Source: Methanofollis tationis (GTDB lineage Archaea; Halobacteriota; Methanomicrobia; Methanomicrobiales; Methanofollaceae). From it: a stretch of 64,000 nucleotides of DNA. Within the stretch, counting starts at the first letter, position 1, and every line of letters starts with the position of its first letter. The notes below the pieces were generated by a model that worked only from the letters and a program-made list of their open reading frames with translations, ran no database searches and was not told the origin of the DNA. Below, one piece after another: positions 1,366 through 36,423 of this stretch. Location: contig NZ_JABXWR010000001.1 in NCBI RefSeq assembly GCF_013377755.1, positions 1,127,104 through 1,191,103 on the forward strand, written 5' to 3'. The position numbers and the translations under genes were made by a program.

Positions 1366-1596
1366 TTGTCAGAGCATCGTCTGCGCTACACAGTACTCAT
1401 GGAGCAGAACGAGGACGGAGGCTACACCGTAACGGTTCCATCGCTCCCCGGCTGCATGGGTGAGGGGTCCACCCGGGAAGAAGCGCTGGCAAACATCGAG
1501 GAGGCGATCTCAGGATATATTGAGGTAGCCAGAAACCTGGGACGGCCCATTCCCGTTGAGGTTTCCGTATCTCCCAATACAATCAATGCAGTATGA
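1366..1596 (+). CDS. hicB: HicB family antitoxin
   Basis: This 76-residue protein has the HicB N-terminal fold signature: a tyrosine-rich first strand (RYTVLMEQ), then GGYTVTVPSLPGCMGEG and STREEALANIEEAISGYIE. It should neutralise the HicA mRNA interferase and probably autoregulate the operon. I chose TTG 1366 because GGAGGG precedes it by five bases; ATG 1399 is an alternative but would remove the first beta strand. The stop overlaps the hicA start (ATGA), so antitoxin and toxin are translationally coupled, with hicB first. No C-terminal DNA-binding domain is visible, as in short HicB forms. The partner toxin gene is interrupted. Confidence 0.88.
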   Translation: MSEHRLRYTVLMEQNEDGGYTVTVPSLPGCMGEGSTREEALANIEEAISGYIEVARNLGRPIPVEVSVSPNTINAV

Positions 1597-2057
1597 AAAT
1601 TCCAAGAATCACCGGGGAAAGAGCGATCAGGGCCCTGAAAAAAGTGGGTTTTGAGGAGGTTGGCGTGCGAGGAAGCCACCACTACCTCCATCATGCCGGG
1701 CGCGGTGCCATCGTCACGATTCCGGTACACGCCCGGAAGACCCTTGCTCCCTACATTCTCGCAAATTCATAACGAGCCATATCCTAAATGGCTGAATTTC
1801 GACTTAATTTATAAACAAGGCAAATTTCATTGATGGATATATTTGCGCTCGTTAGGTGTCAAGTACAACACATAACGATATTGGGCATTTCCAGAATACT
1901 GAAAATATATCAACTAAATTGCAATCAAACGAATATTGTGCCTCATTTTTCTCCTCATCGTTACGTATCTCCGAGAATACAGGCTGCTCCAAAGACACTT
2001 CAGACGATTCTATTTCAGGCCGGTCTCTCTGTCGACGAGTTTCGAACGCTCCTGTAA
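1593..2057 (+). pseudogene. hicA: hicA toxin gene interrupted by a small insertion
   Basis: The first 54 codons encode a HicA/YcfA mRNA interferase with the RGSHHYLHH catalytic-histidine region and IVTIPVHARKTLAP. The frame then meets a stop inside foreign DNA (TAA 1770-1772). The missing C-terminus, KTLQTILFQAGLSVDEFRTLL, resumes at 1991 and ends at TAA 2055-2057. Removing 240 bases (the 234-bp insert plus one TGCTCC copy) gives an uninterrupted 74-residue HicA of normal family length in the same frame. As it stands, only a truncated product of about 59 residues could be made, lacking the last helix. It overlaps hicB by four bases. The toxin is therefore probably inactive unless the insert can excise. 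Confidence 0.88.
1751..1984. mobile_element. MITE-like insertion (234 bp) in hicA
   Basis: This AT-rich segment has no credible ORF and lies between two copies of TGCTCC (1745-1750 and 1985-1990), which look like a target-site duplication. Its ends are imperfect inverted repeats: the left end CTACATTCTCGC and the inverted right end starting at 1982, CTGTATTCTCGG, agree at 19 of 26 positions over 26 bases. Base composition differs sharply from the GC-rich genes around it. This is the structure of a non-autonomous element. The mobilising transposase is not identifiable in the window. Confidence 0.8.
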
Positions 2058-32251: not shown

Positions 32252-32890
32252 ATGACAGGATCCGGACGGACGGTGCTTCCGACCCGTGCCGAGCTGCTCG
32301 CAGTCCGGCGTAAGATCAGTCTTGCGGAGCGGGCGCACCGGCTGCTGAAATAAGGCGGGATGCCGTGCTGCTTGAACTGGTGAAACGAGTCAGCACGCTC
32401 AAACCCCGCTATGACCAGAATGGAGGCGCAATACCGGAAAGCCGGGGAAGAACTGACGGCCGCGCTTATCATGGCAGGGACGGCCGGTGTCACGCTCGCA
32501 GCGTTTTCCGTTGAGGAGCACCCGTCCGTTATTGTGGAATATCAGAACTTTGTCGGGCTCGCTCTCCCGCAATTCCGTCCGGTCAAGGTAGCCAGGAGCC
32601 TTGACGAACGGGGTTACGGTTTGGTCGGCACATCCAGCGTCATCGACGATGCTGCCGATGCCTGCGAGGAGATGGTTGACGAGATCATTAAAATGGCCGG
32701 GGTGCGTATGCAGGTGCTCCTGCTGATGCGTGAGATCGCGACCCTGACACGGAGGGTGAATGCTTTGGAGAAGATGCTGTTACCGGAACTCAGGGCACGC
32801 GAAAGAACTATCGAATCGATGCGTGACAAACGGGAGGAGTTCAACCGGCTGTTCCTGATCAAAAAGAAGAAAACCGTATGGACTGAAGTG
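32252..32890 (+). pseudogene. A-type ATP synthase subunit D, frameshifted copy
   Basis: ATG 32252 with GGAGGT upstream opens GRTVLPTRAELLAVRRKISL and AERAHRLLK, the N-terminal coiled coil of subunit D. A stop (32351) interrupts it. In another register the sequence continues as RDAVLLELVKRVSTLKPRYD, then returns to the first register near 32411 as RMEAQYRKAGEELTAALIMA and RRVNALEKMLLPELRARERT. It ends near REEFNRLFLIKKKK. Two compensating indels over about 60 bases point to decay. No other ATPase subunits are nearby. Confidence 0.8.
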
Positions 32891-32950
32891 CGAATCTGCC
32901 GGTTCCTGCAGATACCTCGCGCTTTCGGATCAATTGTGAAGAAAATATCC

Positions 32951-33217
32951 TCAGGGGCTCTGACGATCTACCGGAGCTCCAAGATGTTTGATATCATACC
33001 ATCCCTTCCCCACGAGGATTGATCCTATAACGATGAAGCAGAGTGAATGAAGGCCGTACACCCACGTCTCGTGAGGAGAATCTCCCGAGAACAGACTTAT
33101 CCAGAAGAACGGACAGACCAATCCGAAAAGAGCAAGGCCGGCACCGATCTTCATCAGGCTTTTTGCCTGTCGTTCGTCAGATCTCATTTTGCTTTCTTGT
33201 ATTGGATTTTTTACCAT
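32951..33217 (-). CDS. Small two-helix membrane protein
   Basis: An 88-residue protein with two membrane helices: MKIGAGLALFGLVCPFFWISLF and VYGLHSLCFIVIGSILVGKGW, each quoted in part of its span. The first helix motif CPFFWISLFSG is shared with the 139-residue protein two genes upstream (CPIFWLSLLAG), so the two are paralogs. Met-11 is an alternative start. Function unknown; the gene lies at the end of a minus-strand run led by the permease. Confidence 0.65.
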   Translation of the reverse strand: MVKNPIQESKMRSDERQAKSLMKIGAGLALFGLVCPFFWISLFSGDSPHETWVYGLHSLCFIVIGSILVGKGWYDIKHLGAPVDRQSP

Positions 33218-33236
33218 AGGCCACGCAACAAAATGG

Positions 33237-33410
33237 TTACCGGTTTCTCTTATCGTTCATGACAATGATTCCCGCTGTGATGCAGCCGATACCAGCGATA
33301 ACGACAGTCGGCAGCAACCAGCCGCTACCCGATACGACCGCGTTGACAATGAAGAGGAACGCCGCCCCGGCAATACAGGGAGCAAATACCTTCAGGACCG
33401 GTGGCATCAT
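33237..33410 (-). CDS. Very small two-helix membrane protein (57 aa)
   Basis: ATG 33410 overlaps the upstream stop as ATGA. The product has two hydrophobic helices (FAPCIAGAAFLFIVNAVV and LPTVVIAGIGCITAGIIV) with GSG in the turn and a basic end NDKRNR. I recognise no family. The perfect coupling to its neighbours and codon usage suggest it is real. Confidence 0.65.
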   Translation of the reverse strand: MMPPVLKVFAPCIAGAAFLFIVNAVVSGSGWLLPTVVIAGIGCITAGIIVMNDKRNR

Positions 33411-33826
33411 CGGTTTGTACCCGCGAATTCCCTTCCCAGCTGGATCCGGTATGCGATCATGAACCCGAGGCCGAACAGGAAAACAAGAAACGAGTGGATC
33501 GCATTGAACATGAGTTCGTCCCCTCTTGCACCGGCCAGCAGGGATAACCAGAAGATAGGGCAGAAGATCCCGACAAGCATGATACCGTACCCGATTCTGA
33601 TATTGCTCTTCAGGTGGATCTCCCGGTTCGTGAGCTGATCCGGGAGTGTTCCGGTCTCACCCCTCAGCAACCGCAGGATCTTCTTCGCAAGCATCGTATA
33701 GGGGCAGCAGGAGATCACGGTACGGGCGAACCCGCGTATCCCCCCCTGTGTTAAAAGGCTGGAAGCCGGGCACCGGGACTCTCCGGCCTCATTGGATCTG
33801 TTCTGCCCCTTTTTCTGTCCGGTCAT
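33407..33826 (-). CDS. Small membrane protein related to the 88-aa neighbour
   Basis: A 139-residue protein. The N-terminal soluble part contains two adjacent cysteines (TVISCCPYTM). Two membrane helices follow: IGYGIMLVGIFCPIFWLSLL and AIHSFLVFLFGLGFMIAYRI. Similarity to the 88-residue protein downstream shows duplication. The ATG has GGTGATGAGG upstream. The SCCPY pair could bind a metal. It lies 26 bases downstream of the interrupted permease. Confidence 0.65.
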   Translation of the reverse strand: MTGQKKGQNRSNEAGESRCPASSLLTQGGIRGFARTVISCCPYTMLAKKILRLLRGETGTLPDQLTNREIHLKSNIRIGYGIMLVGIFCPIFWLSLLAGARGDELMFNAIHSFLVFLFGLGFMIAYRIQLGREFAGTNR

Positions 33827-33852
33827 TTCCTCATCACCCCGTTACCACACAA

Positions 33853-35069
33853 TCATCCGACAAACAACGCATAGAAGACAAAACCGCCCAGGGTTGCCGT
33901 GACGAACACCCAGAGGACATAGGCTGCGATGGCTTTGGGTCTGAGCATGGAGCCCAGGATAGCAATCTCCGGCAGGCTCGCGCCGGTCCCGCCGATGAGG
34001 AGGGCCATTGCCGCACCGAGGCTCATGCCTTTCGTAAGAAGAACAGAAAGCAGCGGGATCGCCATCTCGATTCTCAGGTAGAGCGGAACCCCGATTACTG
34101 CTGCGATCGGGATTGCGAGGAGATTCGAGTTGCCCACGTAGGTCTCGACAAGCGATGCCGGGACGAACGCCGCGATGATGCCGCTGATCGCTGCACCGAT
34201 GAGCACATAGGGGATGATCTTTACAAAGAGTGCCCGGGCAAACGGCATGCTTCGGGCGATACGGGGACGGTTGCGTTCCCAGAAACTTCCTCGCTCATAT
34301 TCAGCGGCGGGTGATGTCGAGCCGCAGCACGCGGACGATGGAACCACGGGTTCACAGCATGTCGAAACCGGTTTTGTAACCGGTGCGGAACACCCACATC
34401 CCGAAGCGAGCGGTGCCGGAGATGCACTGCACGGTAAAATGTCGTATTCCATTTGCTGCACCCCGGCAGAACACCCACATGCGGATGCCGGTGCCGGAGC
34501 AGATGATGCACAGGACGATTCGACCGCAAACATCACTTCCTTGACCTCATGGCTCAGCCGGGTGCTGCCGAGGAACGCTCCGCCGATAATCGCCATGACG
34601 AGGGTCACGACAAAATAGACGAGAGCGATCTGCCAGCCGAAGACCCCGAAGATGATTCCCACGACCATGAAATTGCACACTGGTGCAGAGAATAAAAATG
34701 CGAGCACGGTTGAGAAGGGTACTTTTGAGGATTTCGATTAACTCCCCACCTGAGATGCGTCAGTTATAAATCATTTATATGTGGCCTGGATTAATCGAGG
34801 GGTTTTTCGAAGTCCTCTTTTGACTCTATCATTCCCATCGAGATCGGTATCATCGATGCGCTGCAGAACGGGGTGATTATCCCAAGGAGCGCCCCGATGA
34901 CCGGCCCTTTTCTCCCGAGGCCGCTCCCGAGGCGTTTCTGGATCTTCTCCTGTGGAACATATTCACGCACGATACCGGTGAGAATCGCGATAACAGCGAT
35001 AAGGATCACGAGCACGACGGCAACATGGACAAATTCATTGAATGCGATAGTCAGTTGTTCTTGTAACAC
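33853..35069 (-). pseudogene. ArsP/DUF318-type permease interrupted by a small insertion
   Basis: The N-terminal 84 codons (FVHVAVVLVILIAVIAILTG, GALLGIITPFCSASMIPISM) run to GMIESK, then enter foreign DNA and stop at 34791. The rest resumes at 34722 as VPFSTVLAFLFSAPVCNFMV and continues to 33853. Removing 95 bases (the 91-bp insert plus one TTTT) restores a continuous 373-residue permease, although the two pieces are now in different frames. The DUF318/ArsP family exports organoarsenicals or other soft metals; CSAS and VCNF contain family cysteines. The central loop is unusually Cys-rich (ACGCSAG, GCGCSAP, STCCEP, ACCGS). Confidence 0.85.
34727..34817. mobile_element. MITE-like insertion (91 bp) in the permease gene
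   Basis: The segment is bounded by TTTT on both sides (34723-34726 and 34818-34821). Its termini are inverted repeats: GAGGATTTCGATTAACTCC at the left and the inverted right end GAGGACTTCGAAAAACCCC agree at 15 of 19 positions. The interior is AT-rich with no ORF. The permease aligns across it without loss when it is removed. No relationship to the insert in hicA is visible. Confidence 0.78.
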
Positions 35070-35204
35070 GGTTTCACCATTAGGTTAGGAATCTCCGGCG
35101 GTGTGCAAGCCAGGATTAATTCCAATAAATCTCTGCCAGCACTAAATTTATATGGGATACTAATTCGAATCGTATATACTACACAAAATCATAGTTGAAA
35201 CCGT

Positions 35205-35594
35205 ATGATGAAAGATCCCTCCTGCTATTTATGCCCGGTCGAGGGCACGCTTGATGTGATCGGCGGGAAATGGAAACCGCTGATCATATGGTTCCTGCGA
35301 AAACGATTACTGCGATTCAGCGATCTGCGGCGGTCAATTCCCGGCATAACGGATGTAATGCTCACCAAACAGCTCCGCGAACTTGAGGAGGATGGTGTGA
35401 TCAATAGGAAGGTCTACAACCAGGTCCCGCCCAAGGTTGAATATTCCCTCACACCGCTGGGGATGACGATCATCCCGCTTCTCGATGCGCTCTGCGACTG
35501 GGCGATCGAGCATATGAAGATCCCGATGATTGACGACGATGAAATTGTTAGCCGTGACTCAAAGAAAAGGAACAAGTTAGACAAAGCCCGTTGA
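35205..35594 (+). CDS. HxlR family winged-helix transcriptional regulator
   Basis: A 129-residue protein: CPVEGTLDVIGGKWKPLIIW is the HxlR N-terminal hallmark, RFSDLRRSIPGITDVMLTKQ is the recognition region, and VEYSLTPLGMTIIPLLDALC completes the wing and dimer helix. Cys-7 and Cys-10 (CYLCP) could sense redox or metals. It is divergent from the permease, which it may regulate. The intergenic region has a TATA element (TTTATATG, about 35147) and an ATTCGAAT palindrome near 35163. Confidence 0.9.
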   Translation: MMKDPSCYLCPVEGTLDVIGGKWKPLIIWFLRKRLLRFSDLRRSIPGITDVMLTKQLRELEEDGVINRKVYNQVPPKVEYSLTPLGMTIIPLLDALCDWAIEHMKIPMIDDDEIVSRDSKKRNKLDKAR

Positions 35595-35619: not shown

Positions 35620-36423
35620 TTGTACACGAACGCCTCGCCCCTCGGCGTTCGTCCCAACTATGACGTCGTTCTCATGATCAAACTGCTGGTGCTGCAGCAG
35701 TGGTATGGTCTGTCAGACCCTGAACTGGAGCGTCAGGCGATGGATCGGATCTCGTTCCGCCATTTTCTGGGGTATCCGGAAACCATTCCGGACCGGTCGA
35801 TGATCTGGCTGTTTCGGGAACGTCTGGAGCAAACCGGCAAGGATACTGCGATCTGGGAGGAGTTCCAACGGCAACTCGATGCACAAGGCCTCGCGATCAA
35901 ACGCGGAGTCATCCAGGATGCGACGTTCATCACGGCTGATCCGGGGCATGCCTCTGCCGATACCCCCCGGGGAGACCAGGCACAGACCCGGCGGAGCCGC
36001 GATGGTACCTGGGCAAAGAAGGGAACGAAGTCCCAGTTCGGGTATAAACTCCACATCCTACTGGATAAAGACAATCAACTCATCCGCCGGATTGAAACGA
36101 CCACGGCGTCGCTCCATGACAGCAAGGTCGATCTCTCCCGGGAAGGCGAGACGGTCTATCGCGACAAAGGCTATTTCGGCGTGAAACCGCAGGCATCCAT
36201 GGACAAGACGATGCACCGGGCTGTCCGCGGCCATCCCCTCTCGATCAAGGAGAACCGGAGAAACAAGGCCATCAGCAGAACACGCTCGCTGGTGGAACAG
36301 CCGTTCGCCGTGATCAAGCGGGTGTTCCATGCAGGCCCCCTCATGGTCACGACAGTTGCCAGAGTGCGAGTCAAAAACACCGTCTCCTGCATGAATTTCA
36401 ACTTCAGGCAACTTCTGAGGTGA
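35620..36423 (+). CDS. IS5 family transposase, 5'-truncated
   Basis: The product holds the IS5 DDE core: VIQDATFITADPGH (first Asp), KLHILLDKDNQLIRRIETTT, the YRDKGYFG block (second Asp), and TRSLVEQPFAVIKRVF (Glu). It begins at TTG 35620 with YTNASPLGVRPNYDVVLMIK, a position normally about 50 residues into the protein, so the N-terminus and left IS end are missing. It ends against another IS remnant. Probably inactive. Confidence 0.85.
   Translation: MYTNASPLGVRPNYDVVLMIKLLVLQQWYGLSDPELERQAMDRISFRHFLGYPETIPDRSMIWLFRERLEQTGKDTAIWEEFQRQLDAQGLAIKRGVIQDATFITADPGHASADTPRGDQAQTRRSRDGTWAKKGTKSQFGYKLHILLDKDNQLIRRIETTTASLHDSKVDLSREGETVYRDKGYFGVKPQASMDKTMHRAVRGHPLSIKENRRNKAISRTRSLVEQPFAVIKRVFHAGPLMVTTVARVRVKNTVSCMNFNFRQLLR

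Follow-up and report, generated by a model that had tools for sequence, protein, structure and literature searches.

A 91-bp element with IS5-type ends in a permease gene of Methanofollis tationis, and paired TATA-like boxes at the centre of its archaeal relatives

In Methanofollis tationis, an ArsP_1-type permease gene has very probably been put out of frame by a MITE of the IS5 family (IS5_4 group), mobilised in trans by a resident IS and inserted at a TTTT site with duplication of 4 bp. The insertion itself is an ordinary case of a small transposon inactivating a gene. What deserves following up is the family of the element with its conserved architecture, which is more useful than the insertion. 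Beyond the inverted repeats, interior conservation is limited to a central pair of TATA-like boxes, a feature that we regard as new. The pair offers a testable idea of how a DNA of 90 bp may be transposed, possibly by borrowing a general transcription factor of the host. The analysis started from a window of 64,000 nucleotides (positions 1127104-1191103 of the contig) in a genome of 2.25 Mb. The features discussed here are collected in Table 1.

Table 1. Features of the interrupted permease locus (positions within the window)
Feature	Position	Strand	Remarks
5' fragment of ArsP_1-type permease	34791..35069	-	92 codons; final 8 (EDFEKPLD) and stop supplied by the MITE
3' fragment of ArsP_1-type permease	33853..34707	-	284 codons, GTG start
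Probable MITE, 91 bp, non-coding	34727..34817		inverted ends match at 15/19; flanked by a 4-bp duplication; other archaea have relatives of 88-92 bp
Target-site duplication TTTT, left	34723..34726		target present once in the uninterrupted L053 and L046
Target-site duplication TTTT, right	34818..34821		target present once in the uninterrupted L053 and L046
Left terminal inverted repeat GAGGATTTCGATTAACTCC	34727..34745	+	17/19 against the 3' end of IS-A
Right terminal inverted repeat GAGGACTTCGAAAAACCCC	34799..34817	-	17/19 against the 3' end of IS-B; 16/19 against the 5' ends of IS-A and IS-B
Central core with a pair of TATA-like boxes	34763..34781		conservation; recurrence across the phylum
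IS5 transposase remnant, IS-A-type, 5'-truncated	35623..36416	+	87% identical to IS-A positions 190-983; NF033581 214.7 bits

A preliminary description of this DNA had claimed that the permease gene is split by a 91-bp insertion between TTTT flanks, that its ends agree at 15 of 19 positions, and that removal of 95 bases restores an ArsP-type protein of 373 residues although the fragments are now shifted in frame. All of this was recomputed and agrees. At present, the two fragments lie in different frames, and the Pfam ArsP_1 profile (PF03773) is divided between them, with positions 6-78 in the 5' fragment and 87-292 in the 3' fragment. When 95 bp, namely the element and one TTTT, are deleted in silico, a single ArsP_1 frame of 373 codons results, without a gap. 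The encoded protein is likely to be a metal or arsenic-type permease. The closest named model is SO_0444 Cu/Zn efflux, to which the 3' fragment is distantly similar, with a score well below the cutoff. After the insertion, the gene is presumably inactive.

The empty site can be seen in other archaea. One ortholog, from a Methanoregula MAG (L046), is 90% identical and has an open frame. The other (L053) is 93% identical and comes from a genome of another family in the same order (G037), which has two copies. The preliminary description would have been hard to maintain if orthologs shared the interruption, but both orthologs that were found are uninterrupted. In both, the junction reads GAGTC(A/G)AAAGT, with one copy of the target exactly there (on the gene strand, AAAA in L053 and GAAA in L046). 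A search of the M. tationis genome with the insert, as proposed earlier, returned a single full copy of the exact 91-mer. The single-copy state could be expected for an assembly error, or for a chance short insertion rather than a transposon. Such an origin is already contradicted by the duplicated target, the common ends, the empty sites, and the homologous elements of the same length elsewhere, and is extremely improbable.

The ends of the insert also stand out in the window. In a window-wide scan, 135,693 pairs of identical 4-mers were spaced 60-399 bp apart, and only two of them enclosed segments whose ends agree at no fewer than 15 of 19 positions, where our own binomial estimate gives about 0.2. 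One of the two is the insert in the permease gene, and the other is a stretch at 1756-1977. Inside the 91-bp element, all three minus-strand frames contain stops, and there is no transposase gene.

The stretch at 1756-1977 is 222 bp long and has TACA on both sides. Its inverted ends (TTCTCGCAAATTCATAACG / TTCTCGGAGATACGTAACG) match at 15 of 19 positions, and it lies at the end of a HicA-like frame (1560-1769, plus strand). It is probably the insert near hicA that the preliminary description had paired with the permease insert as two short non-autonomous elements in one window. The pairing holds only loosely. The ends differ from those of the 91-bp element, a search of the same genome found no relative of this single copy, and it belongs to another family.

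The genome of M. tationis itself contains likely mobilisers of the permease insert. If two mismatches are allowed, the pattern GAGGAYTTCGAWWAACYCC has 46 matches there, against none for the reversed control, and most of the matches are ends of two ISs, termed IS-A and IS-B. IS-A is 1139 bp long and its transposase gives 17 full matches in the genome. The 16 full copies that were retrieved are identical base for base, and nine of them are flanked by perfect 4-bp duplications. IS-B is 1147 bp long. Its three copies encode identical transposases, and one copy lies in a TTTT site. The IS-B transposase scores 237 bits on NF033581 (IS5 family, transpos_IS5_4; cutoff 140). The transposases of IS-A and IS-B are 78% identical, and the first 900 bp of the two ISs are 74% identical. 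In addition, the IS-A-type remnant lies 0.8 kb from the MITE. In terminal inverted repeats and 4-bp duplications, the insert resembles IS5-family elements such as IS-A and IS-B, but it lacks a transposase gene and measures 91 bp instead of about 1140 bp. Its left end is nearest to the 3' end of IS-A, whereas its right end is nearest to the 3' end of IS-B. What it has in common with any IS seen in the M. tationis genome is limited to the ends. It is likely that the transposase of a full-length resident IS (IS-A, IS-B or a close relative) recognised the GAGGAYTTCGAWWAACYCC ends in trans. Insertion into the TTTT site of the permease-bearing segment would then have duplicated 4 bp and shifted the frame.

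Some minor points concern the resident ISs. In seven of the 16 IS-A copies (L029-L045) there is no matching 4-bp duplication, and some flanking 4-mers are found again at other copies, for example TCAT in L032 and L036. This is as expected if copies have recombined with each other. A putative third IS group with ends GAGGTCTTCGAACAATCCC was rejected, because the match is due to chance and lies within another transposase gene. Recoding of an in-frame TAG in the IS-A transposases was also considered and rejected, because the TAG lies upstream of the likely start.

Relatives of the insert occur well beyond M. tationis. Within the genus, G007 has three full 91-bp copies (68-73% identical) and a fourth, degenerate copy, and a sister species (G002) has one copy, 82% identical, with the target duplication TATG. 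Copies of 90-91 bp are found in four genomes of another Methanomicrobiales family (G124, G125, G057, G123). Seven of the 11 Methanomicrobiales copies, including the insert in the window, have 4-bp duplications. A phylum-level profile search found copies in further families, about seven in G488 and nine in G534, with a 4-bp duplication at 15 of the 19 loci inspected. There are several copies per genome in G007, G124, G125, G488 and G534, and one in M. tationis. The duplicated targets are 4 bp long and include TTTT, TATG, GATA and TGCA, unlike the TA duplication of IS630-type elements. In G007, a half-element (contig C64) lies directly 5' of an IS5 transposase start, which ties the element to the IS. 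Viral contigs were searched with three end patterns, and no copies were found. A MITE family with a single end type recurs over several families of methanogen-group archaea. That the insert is a short non-autonomous element, as had been proposed, is borne out by the empty sites, the 4-bp duplication, the ends common to resident IS5-family ISs, and the relatives of 88-92 bp elsewhere.

Other members of the genus have only permease matches of less than 50% identity, and therefore the permease-bearing segment, common to Methanoregula-like archaea, has probably been acquired horizontally. By identity, the insert is closest to the copy in the sister species G002, which suggests that the insertion is later than the acquisition of the segment. 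The part of the window that is 85-92% identical to G037 extends over 32372-35548 (about 3.2 kb) and stops just short of the IS5 remnant.

Across lineages, the two terminal repeats of the family (0.90 and 0.88) and a central 19-bp core (0.895) are conserved, whereas the interior outside the core reaches 0.668 (permutation p 1e-4). Two TATA-like boxes make up the core. Their centres lie about 5.5 bp on each side of the midpoint, and hence about 11 bp, or one helical turn, apart. In 28 unique elements, all 55 interior box matches lie no more than 14 bp from the centre. Box type (TTATAA, TTATAT, TTTAAA) and orientation vary, but the position is kept.

Conservation of the core might reflect nothing but common descent or a bias of the search model, without any function. 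The profile model (R1) contained the core, and copies from the same genome are related. Because of the former, the search was repeated with the ends only, allowing lengths of 77-107 bp. All ten usable unique elements from this search measured 88-92 bp, and a strict pattern detected boxes to the left and to the right of the centre in five of them, where about 0.13 would be expected, a comparison that leaves out two incomplete artefact rows and in which related copies make the probability too small. The ends-only elements show the same core and length. When Methanomicrobiales copies are compared with copies from other families, agreement in the interior outside the core is at the level of chance (0.32, against 0.29 when shuffled) and agreement in the core is above it (0.55 against 0.34), in tests that take in related copies from the same genome and are thus not fully independent. 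The change of box type at a constant position also speaks against such a reading. A functionless core is in our view rather improbable. The core is not strictly required, since 101-bp elements in three other Methanomicrobiales genomes (G147, G145 and G181) have the same ends and no central TATA pair.

The literature was searched for TATA boxes in archaeal MITEs, and no relevant paper was found. The short elements of bacteria offer a parallel. Correia elements of Neisseria are short, have inverted repeats, and carry promoters or a site for the DNA-bending protein IHF (PMC10969869). The archaeal MITE is likewise short and ends in inverted repeats. Its sequence is unrelated to that of the bacterial elements, and its candidate sites are the central TATA boxes.

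The central boxes might act as a portable bidirectional archaeal promoter, retained for its effect on adjacent genes or on the 3' permease fragment and comparable to the promoters of bacterial MITEs such as Correia elements. Promoters and IHF sites have been described in bacterial MITEs (PMC10969869), and in inverted-type copies the boxes face outwards on both strands. Their placement is also suitable: archaeal transcription typically starts about 25 bp downstream of the box, and at this distance the starts would be near the inner edge of each terminal repeat. However, a promoter alone leaves the exact central position and the near-constant length unexplained, and in L168 and L160 the boxes are direct rather than divergent. 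For the 3' permease fragment, there is no in-frame ATG or TTG between the stop borne by the MITE and the GTG at 34707. Such a promoter function is a genuine possibility, but somewhat short of probable.

The position of the boxes could instead be understood if the pair served as a hinge. Bending of the central TATA-like pair by the TATA-binding protein would allow the two ends to meet in a DNA shorter than the persistence length, a role like that of IHF. The same boxes could still serve as outward promoters. This hinge, taken together with a widespread 88-92 bp family in which the central pair is the only conserved interior feature, is a tentative proposal that we do not favour strongly. It is a candidate mechanism, much less certain than the insertion of an IS5-family MITE, and our confidence in the insertion does not extend to it. 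There is little to favour a simple hairpin: the DNA fold z-score of the element is -2.35, its middle segments pair poorly, and the boxes are direct repeats in some copies.

MITEs have been described in archaea before. Kamoun et al. 2013 list IS5-derived MITEs for Methanosarcina, and describe archaeal MITEs that share only the ends with an IS (PMC3852290). Their list includes an 89-bp MITE of M. mazei with 16-bp inverted repeats, assigned to ISMma9 (IS630) and without direct repeats (PMC3852290). Compared by description only, this element agrees in size and inverted repeat length with the 89-bp copies that we find in other families of the phylum. The IS630 assignment and the absence of direct repeats are at odds with the 4-bp duplications of the family of the 91-bp element. 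The M. mazei MITE may be a member of the 88-92 bp family.

Elements of other sizes share the ends of the family. The 101-bp elements mentioned above (L138, L139 and L140) have the same terminal repeats around a different interior, with 4-bp duplications at two of the three. Even shorter end-to-end derivatives, for example of 54 bp, are present in G007 (L103 656-785, L104 340-393). They combine IS5-type ends with the GTACTATG motif of the left ends of the ISs.
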